This document shows, in pieces, positions 4,431 to 63,853 of a stretch of DNA of 64,000 bases. How positions within the stretch are numbered: position 1 is the first letter of the stretch; each line of letters opens with the position of its first letter. Origin of the DNA: Mesodorylaimus sp. YZB2_4 (taxonomy: Eukaryota > Nematoda > Enoplea > Dorylaimida > Dorylaimidae); the NCBI GenBank assembly GCA_030248295.1, contig JASANH010000233.1, forward strand, positions 124,001 to 188,000, in the 5' to 3' direction. A program made the position numbers and the translations under genes. Below the pieces are notes generated by a model. That model made no database searches. It had not been told where the DNA came from and saw only the letters and a program-made list of their open reading frames with translations.

Positions 4431-4496
4431 TCAGGTTGAATCTAACTGTTTTGGTTTGTTGCGTAAAACATTGACAAATGCTTGTCTATACTGATT

Positions 4497-5433: not shown

Positions 5434-6990
5434 CTGTAATGAAGAGATTTATTCTCCCTTTTAAGGTTTTTGCTAGAGACGCATAATCATTGAGGGTATA
5501 CAGCCCGTGCATACCAGGAGTCTGAAACAAGGGCAGTGTTCAGAGATCCCTGCATCTCGTGATCTTGAAGCGTGTAACACAGTCACAATAGTAGGATGCA
5601 CAAGTTTAATTCCCATTCAAGGCAGGTTTTGTGTGCCCATAGAAAAGGCTGCCGCACACATCGCGCGAATATCGCACGACATACGAGTATGACATCTGCA
5701 GTAACAGAGGCACAAACCAGCTTTGTTGAGACAGGTGTCACTTGCACAGCATCCGTTGAAAACCTTGTTAAGCTAACCTCAAGGCATGAGATTCAGAAAC
5801 CTAGGTCATAATGGGACCTTGACGGACCACATGAGGACTGGAGGTTTAACACTACAGGATGAAAATGACGAAATAGGCAGTCAGGTGCTCGATCACGTGT
5901 TGAGGGATATCCGCAGCCTACTGCAGAAAGAGCAGCACATAACGTCTGTGCCATATGCTGTACGTGTGTTCCAGCAGAAGCTGACGATAGTGCTGCGAGG
6001 AGGAGGGGCCCCTGTTTAGTCAGAAATACCTGAAGACTTCATGACTTTCTGGACAGGAGGCACTGTGTAGCTGTAACTCGCAGATTGTAGAGGTGTCCGC
6101 ACCTTTGAAAGCCCGTAAATTTATATCTTGAGTTTAGATGGGATAAGGACCTACAATCAAGCAAATCGAAAAGCAAGTCTTTTAACGCAATTTGAGTATG
6201 TCTGACAACACAAAGTTTCCATTATGAATTTCCGTTGCAGCTTCCTCCTGATCACGGTGCTGCGGATATTAAGCAGCATTACCATACATCGCGTGCGTAA
6301 GGCAGGAAATTAGAGAAGATTTTTTCGTCATCAGAAATGCGAGTAATCTTCTTTTCTGTAATTTTGTCAAACCTTGCGCCCTACTGTAGATCGGTTTTTA
6401 TCAAAGGCTCGAGTGGCAATCACGGCAAGCAGCTACAAGATAATATTTCATGCCGATTTACATAGTATGTCTGGTCATGTGGCGATTAGGAAATCTTTTG
6501 TGGTCAATTCACCATATGCTGTGGGCCTAGGGTGTGACAAAAGTGCAGCCGCCATTTGCAAACCAAATGCTGTTTGTCACGCTCGGTTTGAAGGCACACT
6601 GTGACACTAATTGGCCCTGCGCTCCTGTCTGAATATGTCAGAGCCGCAATGTCGTTCAATTAGCTAATTTCACACTTGTTCGATGAAAGCAAGTCAGTGA
6701 AAAACCTTAATTTGCATTTTGCTGGCTTCAGTGCTCAACTCGAGCCATCAGAATCCTGCAGCAGGCTGACATAGACGCAAATTTCAGAAGCCAAGCAAGT
6801 GTAAAATTTGATGCCTGTTCCACATTGAAATCTTCGAAGCCTGTCGAAAAATTGGCCATGTAATCAATAAACACTATCGCGCTTCTTTGACTATGGGTCG
6901 AGCGAGGACAGTCTTTTCTTCAGTGACTACCTTTTCAGCTCGCTCTTGAGGTCTACCCTGAATCTACAAGTTTGATACAATATCTTGACG
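5434..6990. other. intergenic, no gene recognised
   Basis: It should contain the missing first exon of the minus-strand receptor ending at 5433, but no ATG-containing exon with a matching donor stood out. Nothing else recognised. Confidence 0.4.
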
Positions 6991-7543
6991 ATGCCGTCTT
7001 TCCGTTGGAAAATTTTTATTGTAGTTGCTGTCTGTTTCATGCTGACGGTTTCCGAAGCGAGACGTATTATGAAAACTCCGAGGACAAGGGTGAAGCAAGC
7101 TGGAAGTAAGATTTGGTATTTCGTCTACTGGTTTGTGAAACCCTATTTCGCTCGGATTTTCAGCTTGGTTGAAGTACTACATGCCTGGAAAACGGGATTA
7201 TCTGGAACCGGCTGCGATTTTCAAGAAGAAAAGAGAGATACCTGCGGACTTTGACCAGGCAATGGGAAAAGGATGTTGGAAAGAAAACGTGATTGGTGGG
7301 TGAGAAATATAGAATATTCTGCATGAGTTTTTCCAATTGGATTTTTCGGAGGCTAGCATAATCATGAAGCTTTTTTTGCAGTAAAATAGCAGGGGTATGA
7401 AAAAGTGCGCTCCGAACGGAAGCAATGTAGGATGCACGCGGAAGTGATGAACCGCTTTAATCAGTTATACGTGGATTGAGCTATCAGGTAGATTGTCCGA
7501 GCATGAGGCCAGGAAGGGGAAGGAAACGATGTTGGACATATAA
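6991..7543 (+). CDS. small secreted protein or prepropeptide (100 aa, 3 exons)
   Basis: Exons 6991-7105, 7164-7295 and 7488-7543 join with matching phases (1, then 1). The donors are GTAAGA and GTGGGT and the acceptors TTTTCAG and ATCAG. The product starts with a clear signal peptide: basic MPSFRWK, a hydrophobic core IFIVVAVCFMLTV, and likely cleavage after SEA. Exon 2 encodes WLKYYMPGKR followed by DYLEPAAIF and KKKR. Gly-Lys-Arg is the usual signal for dibasic cleavage and C-terminal amidation, so a peptide ending YYMP-amide is conceivable. A single Cys lies near the end. I recognise no family. The third exon is the least certain: the alternative donor at 7300 gives a stop in the next exon. 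Function unknown; a neuropeptide-type precursor is an inference from the layout only. Confidence 0.6.
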
Positions 7544-8187
7544 ATTGAAAAATCTCTGTCGGTGGTCCTTTATTGAAATGTGTTCGTGCGAAGTGTCAGG
7601 TTTGAGCGATGCTCTTGATCAGTCTCACAATTCATTCAATGACGCATTGTCAGAGAATTCGCGACAGCCCACACTTCTCTCACAAGTCGCACCAGCGTAA
7701 TCGATAACACTCACTGTCAGCAAAACCTCCGTCAAGTGACTGGAAGTTACTGGGAACAGGTTGTGTCGAGAACGTTCCTGACTTGAGAGCAATGTAGCAA
7801 AACGACTGATTGACATGCACAGACAGCTGAAAGGCGACAGATGTTTCACCTCATAGCTGAATCCTGCGTAACACATGCCACCAGCCACTAATCGGGTGCT
7901 CTTTCCACTCACACTTCCAGCACAGCAAAAGTTTTTTAACACTCTTTCTCACCTTTTGTTGCAAAAACAAAGGTTCCAGTAGGAAGTTCTCTGATCCTGC
8001 ACCAAAAACAATAGGCGCAGATTGTTATTTCACACACCTGATAACATACAGGTTTAGATATCACAGAAGATACCATATTTAGATGCTAGCAAGATAACGG
8101 TGCACGGCTAACAGAAAAATAGATTCCATTTGATGACGTGAAGTGTGGCAACTTGCATTTGGTAAATGTAGGTTAAGAATTTATTCA
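7544..8187. other. intergenic, no gene recognised
   Basis: No exon or RNA gene was recognised. Most of it is likely the 3' flank of the receptor that ends at 8188. Confidence 0.5.
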
Positions 8188-9889
8188 CTAGCTAAGCAAT
8201 TGTTTGCGTTCAGAAATTTGCTTTGGACTCTCATTTTCCGTCGCCTCCACATTTTGTTGCGCATCGCAATACAAGGAGTCATTTTCTGAGCTACTTCCCC
8301 TGGTAGACCCAGAGTTGAATGTACTCGCCACAGTCGAGCAAGTCAATGCCCGATTTCGGCACGAAATTGCTATTGGATCTAACTGAACCGGGCTCTCCAC
8401 CAAGCTTGTCTGTGGCCCGAGTTCAAAATCAGTGTTGGAGACAAATGACGATTCGACTTCATTTTTGGACGAATCAGTATTCCGAAGATACATTGTTCCA
8501 GGAACGAGTAGTTGGTTTAGAGACACTTTAGACTTCGTTTGATTGCGAGTGGTGCCGTTAGTGCCCAAAGTGTCATTACCAGCGTAGATGATGGTTGATC
8601 GAAACGAAGTTCCATTGGCTCGAAAACTACTACTTTTTGAATCCCCGGCCATCATTCCGTCGTTAATGCCATTCGTCAAATGTTTATTACCGAACGCAGG
8701 ACGTTGTCTCGAGACCGTACCACCTCGATTACTGAATGAGCCCGCATTTCTGATAAACAGTGCTTGAGCTAAGCGAGCCCGAAATCGACCAGATGCCAAA
8801 CTGTACATGATAGGATTGATGGACGAGTTGACGTAGGTCAGCATGTGACCTGCAACTTTGATGATGAAATAGATTTGATAATTTTCCTGAAGCGAGGCCA
8901 CGATATCGGGATAAAAGTTCAGCCACATGAATGAAGCATTTTGAGGTAACCAACAGAGGAAAAAGGTCAGTGCCAGACCAAATACTAGCCAAACAACACG
9001 TCGTCTTCGTTTTGATATTACGTTACCTCCTGGCCGCACCTGCGATCGAGAATTGCAACCTCGGTCATTGGCTACCAATAAGGGCTCTTCGGCCGCGTTC
9101 CTGATCGAACGAGCAACCAAGAGGGACATGCAGAATATGATGACCGATGGGAGGACAAAACCAGTCAGGAACACCAATAAGAACAACCATTTTCGATAGT
9201 CGTACAGCCCGTCTGGCCAGAAATCGAAGCAGGCCGTTGCTGTGACACCTCGTGTGGGCACCTCGGCTGTACGGTATAGGATCCACCACGGGATCGATAT
9301 GACGCCTGACACCACCCAGACATAACCACAGATACGCATGGCCTGGCCCGGACTGCGCCAATCGACAGATTTCAATGGATGACCGATAGCCATGTACCTG
9401 AAAAGAGTGCTTTGGTTGATCATTTTGGGGCTCAAAACAGTGTGAATGGGTCTCCTACCTGTCGATGGACATGATGGTCAGCACCCATATGCTGGCGTAC
9501 ATTGTGCAATACTGGCAGAAATGTGCTGCTTTGCACATGAATTCTCGAAAGGGCCAGTCGTTGAGGATGTAGACTGTGCCTTGGAAAGGGACGCAGAATA
9601 TCAGGAACAATAAGTCGGCTATGCTCAGATTCAGGATGTAAGCATTTGTGGTGGTGGCGCGATGTGCCCTTGTACGAATCAGGGCAAATATGACCACCGT
9701 ATTGCCGATTAGACCGATAGTGACCAGCAAGGCCAAGCACACGGTGAACGATATGAGAAGAGACGATGACAGTTTTCCGGGCGCGTCGTAAGCGGACGAG
9801 TCATCAGTTGACGGCAGAGTGGCATTCCCAAATAGAGTCGAATTCGGCAATACGGTGTCTGCTCCGGTCCAATTTTCTTGACCAAACAT
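8188..9889 (-). CDS. allatostatin-A/galanin-type neuropeptide receptor (class A GPCR)
   Basis: Exons 9889-9459 and 9397-8188 are separated by a 61-bp intron (GTAGG...TTTTCAG) that splits the Arg codon of the DRY motif. They encode 546 residues, a complete receptor. The N-terminus has sequons NWT, NST and NAT. TM1 has GNTVV, TM2 LSIADLLFL, and the TM2-3 loop WPFREFMCK with the disulphide Cys. TM3 ends IMSIDRYMAI, TM6 has FFLCWLPQ, and TM7 reads YVNSSINPIMYS. The cytoplasmic tail is long (about 180 residues) and Ser/Thr-rich. The WPF...CK, SMDRY-like and NSSINPI signatures are closest to the allatostatin-A/galanin receptor group. Receptors of this group couple peptide binding to G proteins at the plasma membrane. 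Orthology within the group is not settled. Confidence 0.85.
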
Positions 9890-12165
9890 AATATTTTAAC
9901 GTGAAGCTAGCAGTATTTGTAGCAAATACAGATGGCATACAGCGGGCAGACAGACCTTGGACAAGCCTGACGAGCGAAGGGAATCGTTTAGCGGCTAGGA
10001 GCGACGGCTGGGACGAGACAGGGAAAAGGCCATTAAAGGGAAAGCAGAGACGGTGCTAGCCGTGATCTTTGCGCGTCTCCTTTTTCTCTATTATCAAGGT
10101 GACCGAAGACGTCTGCCTCTTTCCTATATCATCAATTAAAGGCAGAACAAAAACGCCCCAGCGTGTTCTCAATTCGTCCTTTCCTTTCGTGCCTTTTCTG
10201 GTCTCCACGCAAACACCTTGTCTGCACAAGAGGAAACCCAAAGCTAATCAGACTCTCGACTCCTATTGTCTCCCTCTTCGCCTTTCATTTCCCAATCGAC
10301 TTGAATAGGAAGAGTAAAAGTAAAAGTAAATTCTCCCATCCTCTTCACTTTGTCCAAGCCAAGCTTCGCTGGCCATATTGATGACGAGTCCGATGGGAGA
10401 ATTCGTTCCACGATCAATTATGTGGGCAAAAAATGAATAGAAAAAACCGTCAAGCCAGACCTGATTGTAACTGCCGCCAGCTAGATAATGGCTGGGAAAG
10501 AGAAGCGGGAAGGGAAAAGCAGATGCGCAAGAACGTCCCTCTCAAAAATTGATAAGCTTTCTCATTGATCTTAGCCGGCGTTGACGAGTCTAAAATATAA
10601 AATCCCACATGTTTCGGATAAAACTGCTTCATCTAAAGTAATCAAGTTGACTTGGCAGCTGCCTCGTGGTCAACCACACTACTTATCCTTGGCTAGGTGG
10701 TAATCATTCATGGTGCGCGCATAGGCGAAGTATCAACCACTTTCATTTGTAATGAAATACTTTTTTTGCCATCAAGATTATCAGTGATTTTTCATTTTTT
10801 CCTTGGAGCTTTCCGCCCTCGCAATGAAATTATAAGTAGGTGTTCTAGATTTAGATGATTCTTTTAAATTCGGATTTGTCGCAAAAGGATTCAAAATTGC
10901 AGGACAAGTTTTTTCTGATTATTCCTGTCTTGACCAGACTTCCTTTGAACTATTTATGTTTCAGAAATGTTCTTCCTCCAAACGCCCAACGCAAATGCGT
11001 CAGCAAAAATGGCACAAACATTAATTGAGCGAGTAGGCCGAAAGTATATGGCACCAGGGCCATTGACGTAAACATGTTCGAAAAATAAATTCATAAAGTG
11101 AGAATATTTTACAAATAGACCAATTAGTCGACATACATTTAGAAAACCCGAGCTCACTTTTCTTGAATTTCAGACAAGAAAAAAACCGGGGACATTCATT
11201 AGGCTTTCCATGTTTCCTCCCATTCTGACAAACAGATTTTTTAATAAGCCTCGGCTGGCTCGCAGACAATGAAGAGAATTCTTTAATCTGATCTTCATTT
11301 CACACGAGAACTTCGCCTTGGTCTGTTTTGCGAAAGCACGTAAGAATCGCGCCAATCACTGGTCGACTGACTCAGAGACAGGCTCGATAACGGATTCTAC
11401 TCAAAGTTTCTATAGCTTCGAAACAGGTGACAACAAGAGGACATGAACCAGGTGTCGTTTCCTGCAGAAACGGATAGAACTCGATAGCTTATCCTTTGAA
11501 AGAAAAATGTACGATCGGCACGGCCCGCCCATGTGCCCTTATCGCACAGTTGACTAATCAAGAGTTTTGCAGCGCTCGTGCCTTCGAGCAAGTCGACTGA
11601 GAAATACAGAAGTGAGCTAACGAGCCGCAAAATAACTGAATTTATAATCATCGAAGCATACTTGGTCAGACAAGTGAGCACGTTGATGAAGCCTCGATGT
11701 GACCAGCGAACGCTATCAAATGGATAAGATGCACATCGTAAAGAAAACGGCTCTTTAAGAGTGTCGACTCCAAATCACGCAAGTTCTCTTCAGCATACAG
11801 TAGTAGCTCAATGGTGATTCATTTTTCATTTTTTAGCAGTAATTAATTAATCCGCTGTGTAACCTCACTCACAATCAGTTTACGAACACCGCGCCCGGCG
11901 AGAAAGATAGCGAGCTCTGACGCATAAGAGCACGAAGACCGCACCTTATATGGCCTCAGAACCGGATCACTTTACAATGAACATGCCTGATATCACCATC
12001 ACATACGAGTACAGTATGACAACTTTAGTTCTTCTCGAAGCTTTCAGGTTGACCTGACTCGATTCACCTTTATTGATCGGCATCGATGATGCCGCTGACG
12101 ACTGGAAACAGGCTTGGTGCAGGCCTAAAAGCAGCATACTCTTGACAGCTGCTCTTCTAGCGCTT
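9890..12165. other. intergenic, no gene recognised
   Basis: No supported gene on either strand. Presumably the upstream region of the receptor starting at 9889. Pyrimidine-rich around 10.1-10.3 kb; otherwise nothing notable. Confidence 0.5.
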
Positions 12166-43455: not shown

Positions 43456-44175
43456 ATAAAAAATAACATCGCCTGGTTCTTTCCCGGTTGAAATTCAACT
43501 TCCAATTGTGAAAATAGAGCGGAAGAAAGAAGCGGCCAGGAAGCGCCAGAAATACGCTCCTTTTAAATTTCCCGCCTGTGGAAATCGGGAGACAAATATA
43601 CAATTTTTTTATTTTTCACGGAACACAAACACTCTAATGCAAATTAGATCGACCGCAGAGAAAAGGTGAGAAACTTATATATCATATTTTCTCGCGGTTT
43701 CCAGAATAAGCAGCCTAAACCGATCATAAGCGGCGCACAGGAGCGAAATTCAAACGGCGCGTACTTCCGGCACTTGGTTACCGCTACATTCTTCCTCTCT
43801 ATTTTCACAATTAGAAGTCGAATTTCAACCGAAGAATCCAATCGATGCCATTTTTCGTGCTCTGTCGAAAAAATTCGTGCCTGAAATGTACCTATCTCGT
43901 CTTGGCCCCAGAACAGCCCCGACTCCTTTCCCTTTTCTGACCTAATTTACTCTAGATTTCCAAAAAGAGCACATACCACAAAAACTTTTCAATACTTCCA
44001 AATTATCAGGCTCACTCAAATACTGCGTGCTTCCAACTCTACACAAAATAATCATGAGGATAATTTTTATTTGCCTCGCTTCTAACTAGTCCAGTGCCTC
44101 AGGCACTCTCTCAGCTGTAGTGCCTATGCAGCCAGCTGTCACAAACAATAAAATTCCCTTTCTTTCTGACTTCAG
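43456..44175. other. upstream region of kelch-like copy 1
   Basis: By analogy with copy 2, a short signal-peptide exon should lie here, but none with ATG, hydrophobic core and phase-1 donor was found. A frame at 44054 (MRIIFICLA) looks like a signal start but has no donor. SINE insertion may have displaced the original exon. Confidence 0.4.
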
Positions 44176-45209
44176 CTTTGAACGTGGGTCCATTTAACCA
44201 CGTTGCACAAGGCGTCTACGAAGCATGGAAGCAAGTCAACCCTGAAAATGTGAATGGTGGTAGATTTGCCGCTGAATACGGCGACGGAAAATTGTGGTTG
44301 GTCAGCCAACGCATATTTCGTCATGGATTCGAAGATCCGTGGGATTCGGCAGCTCGCGGGGGAATCGTCTCGACCTTGCAGCTGTCGACGAAAACCTGGA
44401 CCCACAAATCATACGATCGATTAGACGATGATAAACACGGCGACAAGATCTTCTCTTTGCAAAGGCGCTTATTCATGCTGACTTATGGCACAAGTCAGAA
44501 CAAGATTGCCTACCACAAGCTTTTTTGGTGGAGTGACGAAACAACTCAATGGCTGCCTGTGTTTTTCGAAATCGATCTATTCGCATCGACTGTGTCGGCT
44601 AACGACATCGAGTATTTAAGCGTAGTTGTACCAAACCAAAATGGAAATATAGCCTATGCTGTGGCGTCAGCTCATGCGAATGCTTACATAGGCTCTGAAA
44701 TCGCGTTCGCCGAGCTGAAGGTAAAATTTCAAGGAAGTATAGTTGTCAAAGCCACGCTGAAACCCTTGGCTCACCAAGTAGTTCAGGAACCGTCAGCGGT
44801 TTTTTTCACCGCAGTCAAAAACCGCAAATTGTATGCACTCGTTCAAGATTATTACAGCGAAGGCTACGTCCCTGATTATGGCCTTGCATACGTTCTCGAT
44901 CTGAAAACGAACCTGGTTGGCAATGTCAGCCTGAGCGGTCCGAGTCCCGGAGTGTATTTTTTAAATGAAAATATGCATCAAACAAACAACGAAATTTTGA
45001 TGGTTGGTGGCCTCCAATCGTACGAGTTTGGTAAATTTCGCGATGTCGATGACATCTACGCCCTTAACCTAGACGCACTTCGATGGGAGAAGACATCGCA
45101 CAAGATCCCGAAAGGCGCTGGTCGAAAGTCAGTTTATGATCAGCAGGGCAAGAGATTGTTTCTGATTGGGTTGAACGAAGGTGTGAAGGAAGCTCAAGTC
45201 GCTAGCTAA
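44176..45209 (+). CDS. secreted kelch-like protein, copy 1 (main exon)
   Basis: The exon opens after TTCTGACTTCAG and runs to TAA 45207-45209, 344 codons, in the same register as copy 2. It begins LNVGPFNHVAQGVYEAWKQ. Kelch-like strands recur: RFAAEYGDGKLWLVSQ, GGIVSTLQLSTKTWTHKSY, FMLTYGT, ILMVGGLQSYEFG, DDIYALNLDALRWEK and RKSVYDQQGKRLFLIG. The pattern (hydrophobic strand, Gly-Gly, Tyr, Trp) fits a beta-propeller. The signal-peptide exon seen in copy 2 is not found here, so this copy may lack a start or use another exon. Family and role unknown. Confidence 0.7.
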
Positions 45210-47497: not shown

Positions 47498-49293
47498 TTA
47501 AGTAGCGACTTGTGCCTCCTTCACACCTTCGTTCAACCCAATCAGGCACAATTTCTTTCCCTGCTGATCATAAACTGACTTTCGACCAGCGCCTTTCGGG
47601 ATCTTGTATGATGTCTTCTCCCAGTAAAGTGTGTCTAGCTTGAGGACGTAGATGTTTTCGAAACTACGTGATTGACCCTGGGCGTACGACTTGTTACCAC
47701 CAACTATTAAAATTTCATTATTTGTTTGATGCATATTTTCATGAGTAAAATCCACTTCAGGATCTGGACCGCTCAGGCTAACATTGCCAACCAGGTTCGT
47801 TTTCAGATCGAGAGCGTATGCAAGGTCATAATCAGGGACATAGCCTTCGGTGTAATAATGTTGAACGAGTGCAAAGAGTTTGTTGTTTTTGACTGCGGTG
47901 AAAACGACTGCAGATGGTTCTTGAACTGTTGTGTGAGCCAAGGAGTTCAGCGTGGCTTTTACAACTATATTTTCTTCAAATTTTACCTTAAGCTCAGCGA
48001 ACGCCATTTCAGAGCCTATCGCAGCGCGAGCATGAGCCGACGCCACTGCATAGGCGATATTTCCATTTTGGTTTGGGACAACCACGCTTAAATCTTCGAT
48101 TGCGTTACTCGATGCAGTCGATGCGAGTCCGTCGATTTCGATAGAAACAGGCAGCCATTGCGTCGTTTCGTCATTCCACCAGAAAAACTTGTTGTATGTA
48201 ATCTTGTTCTGACTTGTGCCATAGGTCAGCATGAATAAGCGCCCTTGCAAAGAGAAGATCTTGTCGCCGTATAAATCATCGTCCAATCGATCGTATGATT
48301 TATGGGTCCATGTTCTCGTTGAGATTTGCAAAGTTGAGACGATTCCCCCGCGAGCTGCCGAATCCCACGGGTGGTCGAATCCATGACGAAATATGCGTTG
48401 ACTGACCAACCACAATTTTCCGTCGCCGTATTCAGCGGCAAATCTGCCACCCTTTACATTTTCGAGGTTGGCTTGCTTCCACGCTTCATAGACGCCCTGC
48501 GCAACGTGGTTAAATGGACCCACGTTCAAAGCTGAAGTCAAAAAAAAGGTAGAAGGCGTAAAAGTTGGCTAGCCATTGAAAGATATGTTTTGGAATGTTC
48601 TAGATCAAGCTTCGGAAACTTATTTGGCATTTCTCTGCAGGGCACCCTTTTGTGATCTGCTGTTCATCAGATTTCTAGCGTAAAATATACGCATCCGGCC
48701 TATCTGAGCATCCGCAGCCATCCATGACTTCAATTGAGCACTAAGAAACGGGGTTAGATTTTTTACTTGTTCGCTTATAGTTGCATGCGCCGAAGGCCTT
48801 AGAACACCTGTTTTCAGGTAAAATAAGTCTATGATCTTCGGTCTGAAGATATTCATAGTCAGAAAACATTTCACAGAACCTGAAGAGACATCAAGGCAGT
48901 AGAACTCGGCATTTCGACCGTTCGTGGCGTTCTAGATAAAACATTTTAAAAACTGCGCTTTTGCGAGCTGTTTCAATTATTTTTGTGCAAAGTGTTGCAT
49001 CAGTGCGTCTCAAGTTGGCTGCTAGCTCGAAATCCTAGATAGGAAGTTGTTCGCATGTCGCACTGCAAACAATTGCCGCCTAAATTGTATCCAGACTAAG
49101 GATGTAAAATTGTATTCAGATCCAGAACTATGTGTCATATCTTGAAGGATATGCCACTCTCGAAAGCCCTCTCATCAAAACAATTTCAACATGCTCCTTT
49201 TAAAATGAGTTGTGTCAAAAAGCAAGTATTGCGTATAAAAATCTTACCGTGAGCATTGACCAGGAGCAGTACTCCAGCCGCTACCACTTCCAT
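47498..49293 (-). CDS. secreted kelch-like protein, copy 2 (complete)
   Basis: Exon 1 49293-49248 (ATG, donor GTAAGA, phase 1) and exon 2 48531-47498 (acceptor GACTTCAG) give 359 residues. Exon 1 plus the first codon of exon 2 is a signal peptide: MEVVAAGVLLLVNAHA. The mature part parallels copy 1 along its whole length with many substitutions but no frame break, including GGNKSYAQGQSRSFENIYVL and KLDTLYWEKTSYKIPKGAG. The sequons NVS and others may be glycosylated. Intron 1 is 716 bp. The two genes point towards each other as an inverted duplication about 2.3 kb apart. A kelch-like secreted beta-propeller is an inference from the strand pattern; no known family recognised. Confidence 0.82.
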
Positions 49294-51079: not shown

Positions 51080-52500
51080 GGGAAGTTTGCCCCCCACATT
51101 TCGTCCCCCACATTTCGTCCCCCACAATTCGTCCCTGCACAGTTCGTCGCAGAGTAGTTTCGTCCCCTCACATTTGGTCCCCAGACCATTCGTCTCCACA
51201 TCAACTATTGAGAGTTCAATAGGAGTTTGGAGGTCAGGTGATAATTGTCGAGAAAGGTTTTCTCGTTGAGCCCTGGCTCCAGGACGAATGCTGATTTTCT
51301 CAACGGCCGCCAATCTTCAGCTGCTTTCGCAAAGTACCGAATGGTTCGCCGATGGAACGTTCAGCACAGCGGCAGCCCTTTTCGAACAAGTTTACACTAT
51401 TCATGTCGTACGGTTCAACGCGGTCATCCCTGTCGTCTATGCTTTTTTGCCGAATAAGACGAGGGCGACGTACGTCAAGCTCCTGCAAGAATTGAAACGT
51501 CTGCAGCCTGGTCTCCATCCAGCGCAGTTGATGACAGACTTTAAACAAGCTGCCATGCAAGCCTTCGATCAAGAATTTCCTGGAATTCAGAAGACCGGAT
51601 GTTTCTTCCATCTATGCCAGTCCATGGAGAAAGGTTCAGAATGAAGGTCTCAAGGTAAGCAGTCATTATTCAATCATTCAGACCACTATTTAGTCTCATT
51701 CATAGTATCCTGATTTAAATTCTAGGCGCGCTACGAGCATGATCATGAATTCGCTCGCTGGATTCGTGTGTTACTGGCCCTGGCATTTGTGCGTCCTGCC
51801 ACTGTCGCCAACGCATTCGAAGATCTGGTCGAGAACGCAGATTTCCCAGATGATGCACGCCCAATCGCCAATTATTTCGAGGACACCTACATCGGACGAA
51901 GGTTGCGACGTGGACGACAAGTCCCGCAGCTCCCTATCGCTCTGTGGAATGTTCATCAACGCACACTCGACGGCCAACATCGCACCAACAACGATGTGGA
52001 GGGATGGCACCGTGGATTTCAAGAAACGTGTTGTGCGATATTTCCGAATATCTACAGATTTATCGACGCTCTCAGAAGTCAGCAAGGCGTTCATAATTAC
52101 GAAATCGTTCATATGATCGCTGGTAACCCAGGCAATCCGAGGAATAAGAAATACGCTGCGATTTCGGCTAGAGTCAAACGGATTTGTGAGGACTTTGATA
52201 ATGGAAATGTGATCGATTTTTTTGGAGGTATCGCATACAATTTCGAGTTCTGAGTATCTTGGCTTATATTCTACATACATCATTGCGTATTCTTGGGGAC
52301 AATATTTGTATTGCTATGATAAGGGTAATGCTATGATTTCCTTGACAATGAATACAAAAATTTTTCTGGGGATGAATGGTCTGGGGACGAAATGTGAGGG
52401 GGCGAAACAGCGGGGGACGAAACTACTCGGGGACGAAATGTGCAGGGACGAATTGCGCGGGACGAATTGTGGGGGACGAAATGTGGGGGACGAACTTTCC
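51080..52500 (+). mobile_element. decayed Mutator-like (MULE) transposon with iterated terminal repeats
   Basis: Terminal inverted repeats at 51080-51194 and 52374-52500 are built from 12-16 bp iterations of TTCGTCCCC(C)CACA (left) and its complement (right). The transposase remnant joins 51282-51650 and 51726-52253 across an intron (AAG|GTAAGC...TTCTAG). The MULE signature is clear: EWFADGTF (first Asp), PVVYAFLPNKTRATY, MTDFKQAAMQAF (second Asp), GCFFHLCQS, and RTNNDVEGWHRGF (Glu). A one-base frameshift lies near 51620 after LCQS, and the N-terminal DNA-binding region is missing, so it cannot be autonomous. Target-site duplication not evident. Confidence 0.88.
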
Positions 52501-52639: not shown

Positions 52640-55372
52640 AGAAAAACGGGCTCTGAAGCTCAACATTGATCATCCATTATCATATTCAAGAAGCGTTTCG
52701 AGAATACACCAACGGCGAAAAGTTAAATCCTGTCAGCGTCCGCGCGGAGACGATGGCTGCCGGACACGGGTTCACCCGCTCCATATTACGACTGTCGCTG
52801 ATGTGGGACGAGGAAGACAAAAATAAACACTTATATTTGCCTAAGTCGGCTATACTAAAGGCCCTGAGTAAAGATGCAATTGGAAAGTTATCCGACATGT
52901 TTAACATAGAAGATGGAGCTGCGAAACAGGGTTTCACTCAGATGGTGATCACCGCCCACAAAACCGAATGCACTGTGTATGGACTGTTTGGAAAAGGATA
53001 CCACCCCCACCAGTTCCCATGGCCCGCACTTACGCCACTTGGGTCGGTGACAGCGTGCGTCCACCACTGATCTTGCTAGAAGACTTGGGCGATCGGGCCA
53101 GAATGCTGGGCGATGGGAGTGCATCGTTGACCTACAAGCGATTACTCAGTGCGGCCGAAGTCCAAGCCAGTTTACAAGCCTGGTGCCTGACGACTGACGT
53201 GAAATGGCGCGACAAATTCGAAGCGTTTGAGCAAAGGACGGCCACCATGTTTGCTGCTTTCATTCCGATGATGCAGAAAGGCATGAAGAAGTGGAAGGAA
53301 ACATTTTCAGAAGCGTTTGGCAAATTCGATGATGTCAAAATTCTGAAACTGCTCCGCGTGGAGGCTATAGTCCAGCATCACAACGAGTACAAGGCTTGGA
53401 TGCCTGCCGTACCGAACCACGGAGACTTCTGGGCCAATAACATTATGTTCAGTAAATTGCCGGATGGATCGATGGTAACGATGTGATGGCACTGATTGAT
53501 TGGCAACTGTTTTGATTGGAAGTGCATAGTCCACTGACCACACTGGCCACCTGACACAGTTGACCATTTCAGGGCAATCCGTTGGACGATTTCAGTCACA
53601 AACCCAGCATGAGTTTCGATGGGCACCTGCGCGATGCCCACATGGACGACATCATAAAACATTACTAAACCTGTCTGGAAAAGAACCTGGGGAAGAATAT
53701 GCCCAAGGAATTGACCATTGATCGAGTGCTCGCTATGGCTCACAAACAAACGGCACTCAAGTGTCTTATCCTGTTCTGCATGCAAGACACCATGAACGCG
53801 CCCAGATCACTGCCATTCCGAAACCTGGGAATAAAAATTCTGTCAAGTCGTATCGTCCAATCTCGCTGCTTTGTGTTGTCTCTAAAATTTTGGAGCGGCA
53901 TATGGATAAACTACTTCGCTCATATTTGTCATTATCTCCAAATCAGCACGGTTTCTGCAAGCGGCGTGGCACGAATACTGCGCTAATATCTACAACACAA
54001 TTCATCCATGATTCTTTGAACTCGAGAAATTCAAAATTCGTTATTGGAATATTCTTGGATCTCCAGAAGGCCTTCGATCGTGTGCCCCACGTATTATTAT
54101 TAAATCGCCTTAAATCCGATCGTCGCATACCATCGAGAATTATAAGGTGGTTGGAATCCTATTTATCTGATCGATCTCAACACGTCGTAGTTGACGGTTC
54201 TGCTTCTTCACCTGCGAATGTGTCCTCAGGCGTGCCCCAAGGCAGTGTTCTTGGTCCGACATTATTTATCGCCTTCCTTGATCCGCTCCTACACGAATTC
54301 AAATTGCGATTCCCGCACTTTTTATTGCCTGCTTACGCTGATGATACGTCGTTATTTGCACCGCTCAAAAACCTTAAGTACAACCGCAGTGCGTAAAACT
54401 GTACCTTCTCCAACTCATCAACATCAGATTGCAAAACAGGATCCCACGCAACACAGCCATCCTCCAGTACAGAACGTATGCATGCATTATAAACGGATCC
54501 AAATATACGTGGATGCACATTTTATCGAGTCTGCGTCGTAAAGCACCAATCATAGCGTTGCATTTACGAGCAACAATGGACACGTGTTCACTGAATTTGA
54601 GGTCACCAGAAAACGTAATACCTAAGTAAGTTACCTGATCGACAAATTCCAGCTTGGTGCCCTGCAAAAACAGATTCGGTAGTTGACTGAGCCGGTTGTG
54701 ACCATAGCGAAAAATATGGCTTGCGTTTTTTCCACGTTGATATTTAATCCAGCTTGACCAAACCACATCATGATAAAATCCAAGGCAGGCTGAATTAATT
54801 TCTCGGCTTCTTTAAATGATTTTACCATTTCTTATCAGGAAGGTCTTGAGCGTGCCGGTTGGATGTCTTTATCTGAGCGTAGACGTCGTCTGAAAGTGGT
54901 ACAGTTTTATAAATTTTATCACGGGTATCACGATTTCAATAATCGATTTTTTATTCACAAAGATGGTAATGTACGTGCAAGTGATAGGCGCTGTGATATC
55001 GATCATCATCTAATTGTGCCTAAGCCAAACTTTGAGTCTTATCGTCAATGTTTTACATATTCTGGTATTTTGCTTTGGAATAATGTGCCACTGGATGTCG
55101 CCTGGGGAACGTATGGTTGGTTTTACCGTAATATCAACATGTGCTTGTGAATGTCTCATGTTTTATTTTTATGAGTATGTCTTTTGATCCTCGAGTGCAC
55201 TCTTACGTGTTTGATCAAAAGTAAAGATTGATTGATTGATTGACGCTTTGTTCGCTCCAACTGATAGCTCTGACGACAAGATCAAGCAAGAACGCATGGT
55301 CGAAAGAGCTAAAGCTGCACTGGACTATGCGTCAAAGGTGCTGGACATTACCATCAAAAATGGGTAGTGATT
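52640..55372 (+). pseudogene. CHK/EcKL-type kinase pseudogene
   Basis: Collinear pieces of a CHK kinase-like (ecdysteroid kinase-like) protein. They are TMAAGHGFTRSILRLSL (N-lobe) and SAILKALSKD, followed by a frameshift at a C-run near 52997-53002. Then come PLILLEDLGDRA, the catalytic VPNHGDFWANNIMF (HGDxWxxN) with another shift near 53468, and VMALIDWQLF followed by a stop. The C-terminal part is cut near 53784 by a LINE and resumes at 55246 as LFAPTDSSDDKIKQERM. Two shifts, several stops and the insertion mean it is dead. Living members phosphorylate small lipophilic or choline-like substrates. The family is large in arthropods and nematodes. Confidence 0.85.
53784..55245 (+). mobile_element. 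LINE (jockey/CR1-like) insertion with an internal inversion
   Basis: Block 1 (plus, to about 54393) carries reverse-transcriptase motifs SYRPISLLCVVSKILE, FLDLQKAFDRVPH, GVPQGSVLGP and AYADDTSLF. Block 2 (about 54835 down to 54333-54393) is on the minus strand and holds the following part of the same protein: NINVEKTQ, VTYLGITFSGDL, CVAWDPVLQ and ELEKVQ. Block 3 (54836-55150, plus) is the ORF2 C-terminus (SLSERRRRL, ILLWNNVP). The 3' end is a GATT microsatellite tail (about 55229-55243), typical of CR1/jockey-type LINEs. The 5' part is truncated. Frames are broken. Confidence 0.85.
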
Positions 55373-55989: not shown

Positions 55990-57354
55990 TCAGTTATGAT
56001 CACTTAACTCATCTTCCGATTTGCTTCTCCGTCGTCGAGCTTCAGCTGCGGATAATCTTCTCAACAATCGTATTCCCGTATTTAGAACCACTTGCACCGA
56101 CTTCTTCTGGTACATAAGCAACGCGGGGTTGGCCACGGTCGACAGTAAGCCCATTAGGGTGAACACGACGAACAGCACGTCCACAGTGCTCGACGTTTCG
56201 GGTGACTCGGGAATGATATAGCAGATCAGCATGACGCATTCTAATGGCGTCCAACAAAGTGCGAACAGAGCCAGCATGGTGCAAATACAATGATTGACGC
56301 GGAGTAACAAAGTCAATTGAGTCCGTTCGTGGTCGATGAAGGAGAGAAATGAGCGACGACTTCGATCGTCCGTCCCTCGGCGGGAAGCAGTCGATGAGTG
56401 GGTAACAATCTCGGAATTGGAACACGGTCTGGACAATCGCCTATGATCACCGCTGGGCACTGGAGCAGGAGCAGCCAAGAGTTGACTGGAAGAAGGGAGC
56501 AGGTGTTGCCGGGGGTTGGGTGCAGGTACATCTCTGGGTCCTTGGCCCAAATTGGGCGGGTATTGATCCTCAAATCTCAATCTCAGATTTAACTCTTGGT
56601 TCGTCTTTGTCATGAGATAGGTGATAAATGCCAATGGAATAGCGAACAGGACCGTGAATAGAGCGCAGTTGATCTCTTTTGTGTTAGAATCGTAGCTGAT
56701 TGCGCAGAACCCGTATCCATCTACCGACACACCGAAGTAGACAGTCAGATCGTAGTATCTCACACTAGCTTTCAAGGGCAGGAGCAGGCAGATGCTACAT
56801 AGCCACACACCACCTATGACAATAATATACAACAGGACCCCCGTGGCTCCGCTACTTCGCCAATGCCTAGAGGGTCTAAACACGAGAAAATGCCTTTCGA
56901 AAGCGATCAGTACGTAGGTCATCATGGTGACTACCACGGGCAGGGTCTGCAAGAGTGGTGATGCGTAGCATAACCAAGGCCCCACACGCCAGTGGGCCAA
57001 TGATAGAACGAAAAGAGATAACGGAACGACTACTATGCTTTTGAATAGATCGCTGAGACATAAATTAAAGAGAAGGAAGTTGATAAAACGATGACACGAT
57101 GTTTCAGTGACGATGGTAAAAATCATGTACACATTGCCAGCTGCTCCTGTCACAGCTACAACAGTGTAGAGTACGACGTACAGGGGCCAGATGGCCCGAA
57201 AATTAGGTTTCAGGCATGAAGAATCAGAATGGTTCAAACTGAGGATAGCCGCTTTGAGCGAGAGCAGTTCATCGGGTGATAACTGCCTGATAGCCGTATC
57301 ATTCAACGGTATGTGCGTATGGTTGATTATTGGACATTCGGTCCAGCGAAACAT
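55990..57354 (-). CDS. rhodopsin-family peptide-receptor-like GPCR
   Basis: One exon from ATG 57354 to the stop at 55990 encodes 454 residues. The frame is open to 57465 but without another ATG, so either this start is right or an upstream exon exists. The N-terminus has sequons NHT, NDT and NHS. TM1 has GNVYMIF, TM2 LCLSDLFKS, TM3 follows the Cys of GPWLCY and ends AFERHFLVFRP (ERH for DRY). The TM4-5 loop has GFC for the disulphide. The third intracellular loop is about 110 residues, Pro/Ser/Arg-rich. TM6 is FALCWTPLE and TM7 VANPALLMYQK. The layout fits a neuropeptide-type class A receptor; the ligand group is not assignable. MITE copy 3 lies 304 bp upstream. Confidence 0.82.
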   Translation of the reverse strand: MFRWTECPIINHTHIPLNDTAIRQLSPDELLSLKAAILSLNHSDSSCLKPNFRAIWPLYVVLYTVVAVTGAAGNVYMIFTIVTETSCHRFINFLLFNLCLSDLFKSIVVVPLSLFVLSLAHWRVGPWLCYASPLLQTLPVVVTMMTYVLIAFERHFLVFRPSRHWRSSGATGVLLYIIVIGGVWLCSICLLLPLKASVRYYDLTVYFGVSVDGYGFCAISYDSNTKEINCALFTVLFAIPLAFITYLMTKTNQELNLRLRFEDQYPPNLGQGPRDVPAPNPRQHLLPSSSQLLAAPAPVPSGDHRRLSRPCSNSEIVTHSSTASRRGTDDRSRRSFLSFIDHERTQLTLLLRVNHCICTMLALFALCWTPLECVMLICYIIPESPETSSTVDVLFVVFTLMGLLSTVANPALLMYQKKSVQVVLNTGIRLLRRLSAAEARRRRSKSEDELSDHN

Positions 57355-57657
57355 GATCGGTGAAAGCTGTGAAAGTGACAGCAATAATTCCAGATTTGAC
57401 GGATTTATACAATGAACTCTGCAATTAGTTTCATCAAAAAAGAATTCGGCAAACACGAACGGCAATTTTAGAAACTCGTTAGCTAATGAGGTGGGGGTTA
57501 CGCCGTTCTAGGATCACAAATTTGCTAATGACTGCTACACGATTCTGAGACTAGGATGGAAAAATGTCACCGTCCAGCATGCCTAAAACGCCTTTATCGA
57601 CATTCTGATCTGCGATAGTGGTTTACTGTATATTGTTCTGATAACAGTATGTTCTGT

Positions 57658-58724: not shown

Positions 58725-61700
58725 TCACTCGCACAAGCGGCTTCGTCTCTTCCCACGGCATCTCTGAATGCACTCCCAACAAATACTGACGATTTCGAAC
58801 GCCGAAAGAAATGAAACGCTCAACCAAAGACCGACATAAGAGCCCACATCCGAAAGCATGACTTCTTGCTGGAAGGAGCGGTCAGACGTGTGAACGTCTC
58901 TACTGTGGCAGCTAAATCCTACCGTGACAGAAGGACATTCTTCTTGTATTATCGTGCTTGTGCGCTGATAATAGACATTGATTTTGGCATAGTTTTTCCT
59001 GCAAAAAAAAGTTGCGTGCTACGTAAAATAAGACCATGTTCACTTCTCTCATGCATTACTTACCTGTACGTTCTGACGCAAACGTCGTAAGCTATATCCT
59101 TCTGTATTGTGCATCGCTGGTGCTGAAAGGATGGCATGCAAACTGCAAAATGTACCTGAGTCGCCTGTGTTGCTGATCCGAGTCCCTACTCTGGTTGACA
59201 CTCTTCTTATGGAGATTTTCCAGGCGAGCCCCTACAGAGTCATGAATGGCCAGCTGTTTCTGATATCCCCTGAAAGTTTTTGTGCTTTCCCACTTTCCCC
59301 CACTGGACCTATTGCCCCATTTTGGACTGGCCAGCGATCCTAATATGATCAGCTTGGCACCAAGCCAACAACTCTCACAACAGCTTTAGTCTGAGGTCTC
59401 CAGTAGAAGCACGACCGCAGTGGGAATCCTGCGCCAGCAGCAGCGTCCCACGAGGGTACTGAACGGTAACATCAGAAGGATGATGCAGTCGACCACAATT
59501 ACCAGCTCCCGAGAACCGACTTACTGAACTAAGCTGTCGCCCCCCCCCCCCCCAGCCTCAATAGGAACAGAACTGCGACGTCCCTGGGCCAGTAAGTGGG
59601 ACGTCGCAGTTTTACCAAATTGAGCTCTGCTACAAACCTCTGCTACACCAAACCACCAGGGTTTGTAGGTCTGCGAGCGTTGTGAGATGGCAATTCAGAC
59701 ATCCTGGTACCATACAACATTCTTAAAAATTTCGGTGTTAAACAAACAAATGCCGCCTATTTTCCATCACGGGGTCCAATTTCCGCTGAATTTTTTTATT
59801 TTATTCCATTAGGTCGCCATTGGCTGACCGTCAGCCGCTAATATTCAAAAACATGTTGTATGGTACCATGAAACATTTTGCGACCACTCGCAACATGAAG
59901 TCCTGATTGCTACCTCGCGACCTTCTTTTGTCCTCGTATGTGCACACTGTAAGTGTCACAGAGCGATTGATGTCTGTCCTCGCAAGTGGTACTGTGAGGG
60001 ATATAGTGTTCGATATATCGTGTGATTAGGTCTTTTATGCCTGTCATCGACACTGCCCATTATGTTGCGTTTTTTGGTGATATGTGCCCTTGCCCATCTG
60101 TCCGCCTAGTCTCTCGTCGCTCTGCGGCCTCGCCCTGCCTCTTTGTCTTGCTGACTTCCTGTCTGGTGCCTTGCCGTCTTGGTGTGCCTAGTCTGCTCAG
60201 TCGTGTTGTGTTATGTTGCCTCGTGTGGTTGCTCAATAAACCTCTCTCTCGTATTGGCTTGTGTTATCGATATGGGAGATCTCGCCTTACGGCATCCTAC
60301 AGTGCGATCAAAGACCCTATTCTGTACTCACCACATAGTCACGTGAGGGCCATGTCGTCCTCGCTATGCTCATGTCGAAAAAGCTTTGCCTGAAAACAGA
60401 TTAGAGAGAGCAACTCTTGAACGTGCCGCTATATGAAGGCGGCACTACAGTAGAGTGATTTCTATTTCAGGCACTATATATACGTGTACTGTAGATACAG
60501 TAATCGGCGCAGCTATTTCCAGCGTGAATTCAGGGTCAATCGAAAGAGGCAAGGCTCAGGCCACTCGCAAACTTACCAACATGGGGGTGGACACAGGCAA
60601 TTGGCCTTCAGAAACGTATCATTAGCCCATTCTATAACTTCGTTCACGCAGTCCCCTGAAAGCACAGTTTTTTATGCTAGGGCGAGTGAGCGTGATAGGC
60701 ACGTACGATCTTCGACTCCACATGTGGACTCATTAAGCGGCAATGGCAACCGTGGATCCCCACATAAGCAATTGTTCAACAGCATCGACTGCATACAACT
60801 GTTGATGCATCCCTGAAACTACTCGTCATAGTCCTTATTCTAGTGCCCAGTCCAACAACTTACATCCAAACTATATGCAGTTGGAAAATAGTAAATCAGC
60901 CCCTCTTTTGTCATTGTACAATTATTGTAGGGCATGGGAAGTTTGTGCAATTGATTCTAGTACCAAGAGTAAACTTTTACTATTTGCACAGACCAGAATT
61001 TCAAGGTCTTACGTATGCCAGACTGAAAGATGTTTGAAATCCCATAGGGGCCGTTAGAGCGTCGACATCAGCCAGCACTGTATCGTTCTGAGTAGCTATG
61101 ATAATGGCCATGGCTGCTTTGGCTGTGCTTCGCATGTAGTCTTGTTGATCGGTGAAAAGGACCAGTTCGAGACCTGTAAGAGACAATGCCATTAGGCGTA
61201 GGAAGGAATGAGACCCAGATTGGTCAGAAAGGGTCCTGTACCCAGCTCCAGCAAGCACTGCTGGAGCTGGTGCAAGCGTGCCTGTCTCCATATGTATTGT
61301 ATACTATAGTGCAGGACGATATACGTCATCCTGTCAAACACTCCTTGGTCAATGCGTGACGCCAGAAACAGGTGAGCTCTTTGCTAGTCAACCCACTCGT
61401 ACCATTGTCAGCTCCGGCATTATTGACAGTGTACAGTTCTGCCGATGAGTTCCCGTTGAAAGTGAAACAGTTCCCCAATGTTGGGTCCATTCTTTCGACC
61501 CATGCCCTTCAAAAAGAGTGACTATTCCACAGGCAGCCATCTGCTTTGCATACTCACTCTTCCCGGCATGGACGCTGGGCAAACTTGCATGACCGTATGA
61601 AATCATCTTTTTGGTACCCAATTTTTCGTAAAGCGTCTGGAGACACTGCTGCAGCAAGGAAGCGCCGGGCATCATCAAAAGCCGCATTCAGGGACTCGGT

Positions 61701-63853
61701 ATCGTTCTGATACTAAACAGAAGTCAGAATTATAGGCCACTGCTAGGTCATAGGAGAGTCAAACATACCTCTTCCAAACGCATAGCTTCTATAAGCTGCT
61801 GAATCCGGGGTGGTATATCTGGAAAAGATCATATCGCGGGCTGCATCAGCTTCATCGAACCTCACTTGCCAACTCCACTTACTAACACAACGGGGTTCAA
61901 TGCCGTGGAAATAATCCCATTTTCCAGTGTCTGTCACACAGTGAGTCACGTAATCACCAAGCAACCTCCAGTCCGTCCCACTGCAGCCATAGACAGCCTT
62001 GGTTTGGTTTTTCCTTCTAGCGTCGTTGTACTTGACCCAGCCATGATCGGGTACCACGTGCGGGCACTGGACTGCAGTACAACAGGTCACGGGCGTAAAC
62101 TGTGGCTTAGCACGAGGGAGCAATTGGCTTACTGAAACAGACTGGTTCGGGCTCATCCCACGTCCCATCATTCTGGCATATACGATCAGTATTGTAATTT
62201 GATAGAACATAATTTTTAGCATCGCTATTTCTAATGCAAGTGTAAACTGCCACAATTCCGGGATACCGTTTGTCAGCTTTGTTGGCCCAACTTGGTATCA
62301 GTCGAACGTAACCGTCGGAGGGGTTCTTAACTGGGGGACATTGGGCTAGAAATCATAGGGATTTAAGCAAGCGAGATTGGGCTTTGGAATTCTACTACTG
62401 GAGTTTTCTCAATACACTTACGCAAGCAGGAAGGCTGCATGCCCCATTCTCCATCGTAACATTGCAAAGTATCCGATCCGATCAATTGATAGTCTGGTTT
62501 ACAGTTGACCTTGGCACGCGTGCCGTGTTGAACTCGCACATCTGTTTCAGGTACGGGTTTACCATCCGAAGCCGTGTATATGATATTCACAGTTCCATTC
62601 ATCAAAAGTCTTTTGCATCGTTCTACAACATGGCTACGATCATTGGCTCTTCATGCATATGAATGGACAATAACTTACGGAAACAATGACCCATCTCATG
62701 CAATCCCTTCCACTCGCTCCGTTCGTTCGCACTATCGACTGAGCATACAGATGAATTCGTGCCAGAAACATCGTACCAGGTTTTGTTGAAACAAAACACA
62801 TATGCGGTTTGTCCAGCTGTGCACGGTTGGTCAGCACCAACCGCCAGTTTTAACTGATCTTTTCGCTCAGGTGCCATCGATCCGAACATATCACTGAAGT
62901 ATGTGGCCAGTCCAAACACCTTAATCATGCCAGCGTCCGCTGCCTTGCTGGCCTTTTCTACATTAGCGCATCGTACGTAAGCATTGTCGAAGTATAGGGG
63001 TGCGCCTAAAGTTACTTATTCTTACTGTAAATCTACACTAGGGCCTCGGTGTGACTGTCGTACATGGAAGAGTAGCTGATAATCCTTGCGGCAGTTTGCC
63101 CCAGGATCCATCATTGCAGGTTAGAGTGATTGTCGTTACAAGCGTTTCGTGCTCTTCTTCTTTGTACTGCGTAATGGTTGCCTTGCTGCCATTTTTATTC
63201 ATCTCATTATCGGTATATTTGATGGAGAAAAAAAGGTCGGGGTCTGATACAATCAGCTTCGGACAAGCACCTGCAAGGTAAATTGATTGACCATCTGTAA
63301 GAGCGCAAATGGTTGGCCAGAAGCCAATTGACGCTAGCAGCTAAGAGTTGACTCCAGACTTCACTCACGAAGACACTTGGGAACTTTAGCCCATGTGCCA
63401 TTAGGCCCACAGTGAGCTTGCTGACTTTGTTCTCCACTGTCTGATGCGACGGAGCCTTGACCGAGGCATAATACTCTGGCTGTCGAACCAGGAAGCCGGC
63501 GCGGGTCACTGTATTCCACATACGCCTGATAAATTGTTAACTTGGGACAGGTCCCTGAAAGGCTCATTGTAGAGTGTGAGATTCTCCAAGGGCATCATCA
63601 TAGATTTACTTGTGCAGTTCGGAAATTTGGCTGGCTCCCATTCACCCTTCTTCGAACATTCCACTGTGATGTTTGGTTTGTCCAGAAGAAACCCAGCAAA
63701 GCAAACTATCTTTGCTTCGGCTCCCTATTGGGAAAAGTGCTTGAATCTACCTAGGAGCACATTATCTGAGTAAGCTCTGACATACTGGCTGACGGGTGAC
63801 ATCCGTGTAAATCACATCTCCATTACTAACTTCTTCCATGAAATCGCATTGCA
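58725..63853 (-). CDS. DEG/ENaC-family sodium channel with seven CCP/sushi modules (5' end outside window)
   Basis: Seventeen exons in transcript order: 63853-63786, 63724-63610, 63554-63369, 63270-63064, 63005-62679, 62622-62422, 62345-62133, 62071-61866, 61712-61558, 61506-61403, 61173-61013, 60956-60864, 60812-60707, 60655-60577, 60389-60332, 59122-59064 and 58998-58725. All phases match, leaving 869 codons open. The first eight exons encode seven CCP modules (Cys and Trp patterns such as VNCKPDYQLIG...GEWGMQPSC). The rest is DEG/ENaC: KIGYQKDDFIRSCKF, LGNCFTFNGN, GLELVLFTDQQDYM, KLPMPYNNC, GCINSCMQSM, NCLCGDPRLPLP, NCLCPPPCW, ARTTWPSRDYV, NYAKINVYY, then TM2 with GLWLSVSFLSAFEI and a short basic tail. 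The family forms amiloride-sensitive trimeric Na+ channels. TM1 must lie upstream of 63853 if present. The join 60332 to 59122 is the least certain. Confidence 0.85.
59571..59611. repeat. perfect 14-bp stem hairpin in a DEG/ENaC intron
   Basis: AACTGCGACGTCCC (59571-59584) and GGGACGTCGCAGTT (59598-59611) are exact complements around 13 nt. It follows a C14 tract (59540-59553), inside the 1.2-kb intron 59123-60331. Confidence 0.9.

Follow-up and report, generated by a model that had tools for sequence, protein, structure and literature searches.

A putative nematode DEG/ENaC channel subunit with a predicted array of CCP-type modules inside its ectodomain

The DNA analysed here, a stretch of 64,000 nucleotides (nt) from Mesodorylaimus sp. 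YZB2_4 that we refer to as the window (contig JASANH010000233.1, in our numbering C80:124001-188000), carries on its minus strand a gene in which an array of CCP (sushi) modules is joined to a channel of the DEG/ENaC family. Rebuilt from the minus-strand sequence, the part of the gene that lies within the window (63853-58725) comprises 18 exons, or 19 if a probable intron of 54 nt (58922-58869) is spliced. All introns of these exons are GT-AG, all joins are in phase and no internal stop is present; the other two frames of the same coding sequence contain 32 and 45 stops, and segments of equal lengths drawn at random from the window (2000 draws) contain 37 on average and 18 at the least. Fourteen of the 17 introns measure 51-98 nt, and the remaining three 187, 229 and 1209 nt. 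When joined, the exons give a protein of 862 amino acids that matches both ASC (PF00858, E 9.4e-54) and Sushi (PF00084, E 4.4e-19) in Pfam. An initial annotation, made from the letters of the window alone, had proposed CCP modules and a DEG/ENaC channel in a single frame, and this is borne out by the phase-matched GT-AG exons, the absence of stops and the two Pfam matches.

The same annotation had suggested following the assembly beyond the window in search of the first transmembrane segment (TM1), and both TM1 and, behind it, a strand of the FPAVTxC type (FPAVTVC, within FPAVTVCSLNPY) are indeed found 0.8-1.5 kb past the window end, in sequence taken from C80:185001-205000, for which we extend the window numbering past 64000. 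The full model has 22 exons with 21 in-phase joins and codes for 1017 residues, the array being residues 155-656. Its highest 19-residue hydropathy windows begin at residues 49-65 and 981-986, one at each end of the protein. Against Pfam, the 1017 residues match ASC in two stretches (E 2.4e-67, the best being 675-997) and Sushi (E 1.6e-18, the best being 157-214); with the array removed, the resulting protein of 515 residues matches ASC in one single stretch, residues 38-495, equivalent to profile positions 5-453 of 455 (E 5.3e-72). The DEG/ENaC pore is marked by a G/S-x-S motif in the second transmembrane segment (TM2), where SVS in our protein aligns with GSS in alpha-ENaC. A His-Gly motif is likewise typical of the DEG/ENaC N-terminus; here PGLYHALM stands where relatives have HGIPHI or SGIPHI, so that the glycine is kept but the histidine is not. 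The cysteines of the family are paired, and the channel part behind the array holds 16, of which, by eye, 13 are in family order, while the strand after TM1 supplies the conserved cysteine absent from the window part, 13 of the 14 family cysteines following the array. Seven disulfides are described family-wide in PMC6197857. As far as can be judged from its predicted protein, the gene very probably encodes a complete DEG/ENaC subunit, from the cytoplasmic N-terminus, TM1 and the FPAVTVC strand through finger, palm and thumb to TM2, with a CCP-type array inside the ectodomain (Table 1).

Table 1. Predicted exons of the CCP-DEG/ENaC gene, from N- to C-terminus; positions are those of the window, extended past 64000 for exons A to C.
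Feature	Position	Strand	Remarks
Exon A: first ATG, cytoplasmic N-terminus, TM1	65533-65264	same as gene	beyond window
Exon B: FPAVTVCSLNPYS...	64923-64819	same as gene	beyond window
Exon C	64749-64662	same as gene	ends in phase 1 as CCP1 requires; 808-nt intron next
CCP1, first exon	63786-63853	-	phase 1 to 0; with next exon Pfam Sushi E 1.6e-8; exon upstream ends in phase 1
CCP1, second exon	63610-63724	-	phase 0 to 1
CCP2	63369-63554	-	phase 1-1; Pfam Sushi E 6.4e-4, 20.5 bits against a cut-off of 20.7
CCP3-like	63064-63270	-	phase 1-1; three Cys, second CCP Cys absent; no Pfam match
CCP4-like	62679-63005	-	phase 1-1; 108 amino acids, five Cys, HEMGH motif; no Sushi match
CCP5	62422-62622	-	phase 1-1; Pfam Sushi E 5e-6
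CCP6	62133-62345	-	phase 1-1; Pfam Sushi E 5.7e-5
CCP7	61883-62071	-	phase 1-1; Pfam Sushi E 0.013, under cut-off; four Cys
Linker exon NIPPRIQQLIEAMRLEE	61769-61818	-	phase 1 to 0; 50 nt; flanking introns 64 and 56 nt
DEG/ENaC finger exon (alpha2-alpha3 region, first Cys pair)	61558-61712	-	Pfam ASC; aligns with beta-ENaC from residue 226
DEG/ENaC exon with GNCFTFN	61403-61506	-	splice model, structure-sequence match
DEG/ENaC ectodomain exon GLELVLFTDQQDY...	61013-61173	-	splice model, structure-sequence match
DEG/ENaC ectodomain exon	60864-60956	-	splice model, structure-sequence match
DEG/ENaC Cys-rich exon	60707-60812	-	splice model, structure-sequence match
DEG/ENaC exon with CLCPPPC	60577-60655	-	splice model, structure-sequence match
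DEG/ENaC exon (TWPSRDYV)	60332-60389	-	splice model, structure-sequence match
DEG/ENaC exon behind 1209-nt intron	59064-59122	-	alternative start 21 nt further in, also in frame (by eye)
DEG/ENaC exon preceding TM2	58923-58998	-	ends at probable 54-nt intron
TM2, pore (LWLSVSFLS), cytoplasmic C-terminus, stop	58725-58868	-	hydropathy peak; alignment to alpha-ENaC 276-576

We scanned each module of the array singly against the Pfam Sushi profile. The cut-off is passed by CCP1, CCP5 and CCP6, CCP2 falls 0.2 bits short of it and CCP7 gives a weak match; a genome-wide Sushi search also places CCP5, CCP1 and CCP6 of this gene over the cut-off and CCP2 under it. Module by module, then, the original count of seven CCP modules stands for five that are recognisable, while the other two, CCP3 and CCP4, are only CCP-like. 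Four cysteines are present in five of the seven, three in CCP3 and five in CCP4. The end of the CCP3 exon resembles CCP5, at tblastn E values (0.38 and 0.63) that are not significant. For the CCP4 exon, Pfam returns sub-threshold matches to Peptidase_M60 (E 0.099 alone, 0.0072 and 0.0089 in the joined proteins), and an identity as M60 metallopeptidase, with HEMGH as the HExxH motif, was rejected because the score is under the cut-off. The array as a whole is 1506 nt (502 codons) long and runs from phase 1 to phase 1. Its end had first been drawn differently, with a boundary exon at 61866-62071 and a phase-0 join between CCP modules and channel; both points are corrected here, in that the CCP7 exon is 62071-61883 and the array ends in phase 1 into a 50-nt exon (61818-61769) that had been overlooked.

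Where in the channel does the array lie? Among solved structures the channel part matches ENaC subunits best, followed by FaNaC and ASIC chains, and the best match in the Protein Data Bank is alpha-ENaC (6wth_A, E 1.2e-40). The array-less protein aligns with residues 85-139 (piece E 3.8e-7) and 276-576 of alpha-ENaC and with residues 226-543 of beta-ENaC, the N-terminal piece in the latter (59-118) being weak. Cryo-electron microscopy of ENaC places the GRIP domain between finger helices alpha1 and alpha2, with beta-Trp218 in alpha2 (PMC6197857). Because the gap in the alignment matches this location, the 502-residue array is, by alignment, an interruption of the finger in the slot that GRIP occupies in human ENaC, and it makes the extracellular part more than twice as large. 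A relative on contig C64 bears on how the array came to be there: by eye, its beta1 exon is followed by exon MNKYIKAATRNLTDSEDTYKLL and then by the finger exon, the middle one of the three lies between two phase-0 introns, and no array is present. The counterpart of that middle exon in our gene starts MSTYIKLKQRP... and exits in phase 1 into the array, after which the linker exon rejoins the same phase-0 intron. Since the C64 relative keeps the flanking phase-0 introns without the array, and since the array runs from phase 1 to phase 1, the array is, on the predicted exon structure, probably a symmetric 1-1 block that exon shuffling inserted into the gene of an ordinary subunit. Skipping that block would leave an ordinary subunit of 515 residues.

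Fifteen loci of relatives were fetched for comparison; six have a mucin-like stretch before the finger exon, three have short slots and six (C11, C34, C387, C54, C290:79-89k and C307) cannot be assigned to either group. The short slots, in C123, C9 and C64, are without an array because only 94, 158 and 246 nt, respectively, separate the beta1 and finger pieces. In the C86 relative (L050, C86:150001-160000, 2472-7910 on the plus strand) the beta1 strand runs on, in one open frame, into a stretch of some 1,760 residues, 43% of them Ser/Thr/Pro, which begins just past a basic KRKKR motif; the stretch is preceded by a TM1-like exon and followed, near 8033, by the finger exon, and the joined N-terminal part matches Pfam ASC at residues 16-112 (E 3.2e-14). 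The other five mucin-like loci (C290:24.5k, C17, C51, C61 and C42; L052-L056, reverse strand) show frames that stay open for 710-1,566 residues and consist of Ser/Thr/Pro to 42-62%, the lengths being lower bounds for the three frames that reach the end of the fetched piece; the frames end at most about 260 nt from the first finger match, or run into it, and beta1 is not reached. On C17, a second open frame of 183 residues and globular composition lies just upstream of the mucin-like stretch. Among 15 other loci, cut by the searches and read on one strand only, C35 has FPAITIC and GWCFTFN 112 residues apart and hence a slot of the ordinary kind, and C14 has a proline-rich stretch ahead of the finger region. 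A finger-region tree of 14 hand-cut sequences and about 100 columns, too short to rely on, places our gene outside the mucin-like clade (support 0.90). From these predicted proteins, the finger slot seems to take large inserts repeatedly, the CCP array among them, and we put the chances as evenly balanced that the alpha1-alpha2 slot is a general plug-in port, which has received a CCP array here and which, in one relative at the least and in six probably, holds a mucin-like stretch some 700-1,800 residues long. If so, these would constitute a class of channels whose giant extracellular tethers or cis-clustering domains are built in, a class of which we found no description.

The 145-Mb assembly that contains the window was searched for further cases. 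PF00858 has at least 114 exon-level matches in it (93 of 1086 candidates scored), dense on several contigs (C64, C26 and C290), and this is indicative of a large family expansion. No paralogous CCP array was found in this genome, all eight matches at E<=0.001 being the gene itself. Sushi matches elsewhere number 31 at E<=0.001, with 48 candidates in a relaxed list; when the positions of these 48 were compared by eye with the ASC matches listed, none stood near another ASC match, all being on different contigs or far away. EGF modules have at least 149 matches (150 of 348 candidates scored), of which those nearest to ASC on the same strand, among the matches listed, are on C24, some 3.5 kb upstream of the ASC match, and on C1, some 6 kb upstream. 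Searching a large protein collection gave no homologue among 3859 candidates at E<=1e-5 and none among 2410 at E<=1e-3; the collection is poor in animals, and we take the result to reflect that coverage rather than absence. The genome also has 133 matches to the cuticle-collagen N-terminal family, which we take to be a nematode marker, and none to an arthropod-type cuticle family, which points to a nematode, though control genomes gave no arthropod-type match either, so that this negative proves nothing by itself.

Elsewhere in the window, two open frames at 44121-45206 (plus strand) and 47501-48568 (minus strand) are, by eye, very alike and inverted with respect to each other, about 2.3 kb apart, the first of them having a kelch-type Pfam match under the cut-off. 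Tandem repeats of 14 bp in opposite orientation (51091-51182 and 52383-52494) flank open frames at 51270-52250 that look transposase-like by eye, and the whole (51091-52494) is arranged as in a DNA transposon; the open frame at 53722-54393 (plus strand) is reverse-transcriptase-like by eye. Rhodopsin-type receptor frames (Pfam 7tm_1) are found on the minus strand at 55993-57507, 8191-9895 and 4650-5486, the last also matching the chemoreceptor family Srx (E 6.4e-15).

What, then, might a channel gain from such an array? In the reading that we favour, and to which we assign a probability of roughly 0.55 for architecture and function taken jointly, the array would have been shuffled, as a block with phase 1 at either end, into the gene of an ordinary subunit, and would stand out from the finger close to the top of the channel, three to a channel if this is a homotrimer. 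Its extracellular partner there could be the matrix, the cuticle, a scaffold at a synapse or another cell, and binding to it would anchor, cluster or stabilise the channel in cis, within one polypeptide, much as LEV-9 and other secreted CCP proteins do for acetylcholine receptors. Since ENaC gating involves the finger, load on the array, or its occupancy, could also bias opening. Anchoring through a CCP partner is made plausible, by analogy, because CCP proteins cluster or stabilise receptors (PMC9083331) and because a tethering model exists for DEG/ENaC channels, namely that of a matrix tether for the mechanosensors of this family (PMC10148893).

A number of observations weigh against this reading. 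Neither CCP3 (63270-63064) nor CCP4 (63005-62679) has a Pfam Sushi match, both being CCP-like by eye alone. The start codon in the model is the first ATG, and the frame stays open further upstream. Splicing of the 54-nt intron, which keeps the frame spliced or unspliced, is a matter of judgement, as is the choice of the least certain splice site, the GTACGA donor of the CCP3 exon. On its own, the N-terminal piece of the beta-ENaC alignment is not significant (E 0.11). As for the relatives, C86 is the only one of the six mucin-like loci in which beta1 is seen in one frame with the mucin-like stretch, and these stretches are of low complexity, where long open frames arise readily; L054, for instance, has 619 codons free of stops in a second frame.

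The main functional rival to anchoring is gating through the finger, under which the array would mainly be a gating element and a CCP ligand or mechanical load would open or close the channel. The array takes the place of the GRIP domain, which sets gating in ENaC, and the alpha2 region of the finger is described with the ENaC gating machinery (PMC6197857), but GRIP works by short inhibitory tracts and proteolysis, and only two R-x-K/R-R motifs are present in our protein, of which the furin-like RCKR (residue 457) opens CCP5 and includes one of its cysteines, while the other lies in the cytoplasmic tail; we regard gating as the main role as possible, if unlikely. It is improbable that the array is a cassette, the gene producing a CCP channel and, with all eight array exons skipped, an ordinary one of 515 residues: skipping preserves the frame, given that phase 1 is found both at the end of exon 64749-64662 and at the start of exon 61818-61769, and the skipped protein covers nearly the whole ASC profile, but phase symmetry is expected of any shuffled insertion, alternatively spliced or not. 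That we are dealing with two separate genes, an assembly chimera or a gene in decay, and so with no single working protein, can be given very little credence, for although two CCP-like exons are degenerate, an 808-nt intron precedes CCP1 and the donors GTACGA, GTACGT and GTAAAT depart from the usual GTAAGT/GTGAGT, there are no stops in 1017 codons, the phases fit, the flanking introns match those of the C64 relative, and two genes or read-through are rejected on the 64 nt from CCP7 to the next exon and on the lack of a separate TM1 for the channel part behind the array, given that both TM1 and the missing strand lie upstream of the array.

Should the array indeed anchor or cluster the channel from outside, the interest would lie in the touch tethering model, of which the way DEG/ENaC channels are held and pulled from outside is an open part. 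A subunit whose own binding array sits in a loop relevant to gating, along with relatives that seem to bear mucin-like stalks at the same site, would permit tether tests in single polypeptides, and would show how readily the ENaC GRIP slot accepts new domains. The initial annotation knew of no such architecture. This holds in so far as the papers listed in literature searches, judged by titles and abstract openings and with animal protein databases outside the scope, gave no description of sushi/CCP modules in a DEG/ENaC, and a term search of the main text of a phylogenetic survey of the family finds neither sushi nor EGF mentioned (PMC9822975); the same architecture may exist unremarked in public annotations. 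It does not hold for DEG/ENaC subunits with extracellular modules in general, which are known from EGAS.

Several known systems resemble parts of the arrangement. Human ENaC alpha, beta and gamma also have an extra domain between finger alpha1 and alpha2, but that domain, GRIP, is a small beta-sheet unit with a part in activation by proteolysis, whereas here about 500 residues are CCP and CCP-like. The mucin-like relatives in the same genome (C86 and five others) also have a large stretch that adjoins the finger exon or ends a little ahead of it, in their case Ser/Thr/Pro-rich and almost free of cysteine. Invertebrate CCP arrays that act on receptors are found in LEV-9, Hig and Hasp, described as clustering acetylcholine receptors (PMC9083331), but these are separate proteins, outside the channel polypeptide. 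Two CCP modules are built into the receptor itself in GABA-B R1a, where they serve axonal targeting and surface stability (PMC9083331), although that receptor is metabotropic and its CCPs are N-terminal, in contrast to a channel with CCPs inside a loop. Closest of all is C. elegans EGAS ("EGF plus ASC"), in which nematode DEG/ENaC subunits bear added extracellular modules (PMC10424705); in the screen described there, EGAS gave no currents differing from controls. The modules of EGAS are EGF, while those of our subunit are CCP, no EGF family being among the Pfam matches of the 1017-residue protein up to E 1. EGAS is thus the nearest precedent: a DEG/ENaC with extracellular modules is already known, and what the present subunit adds is a variant with CCP modules.

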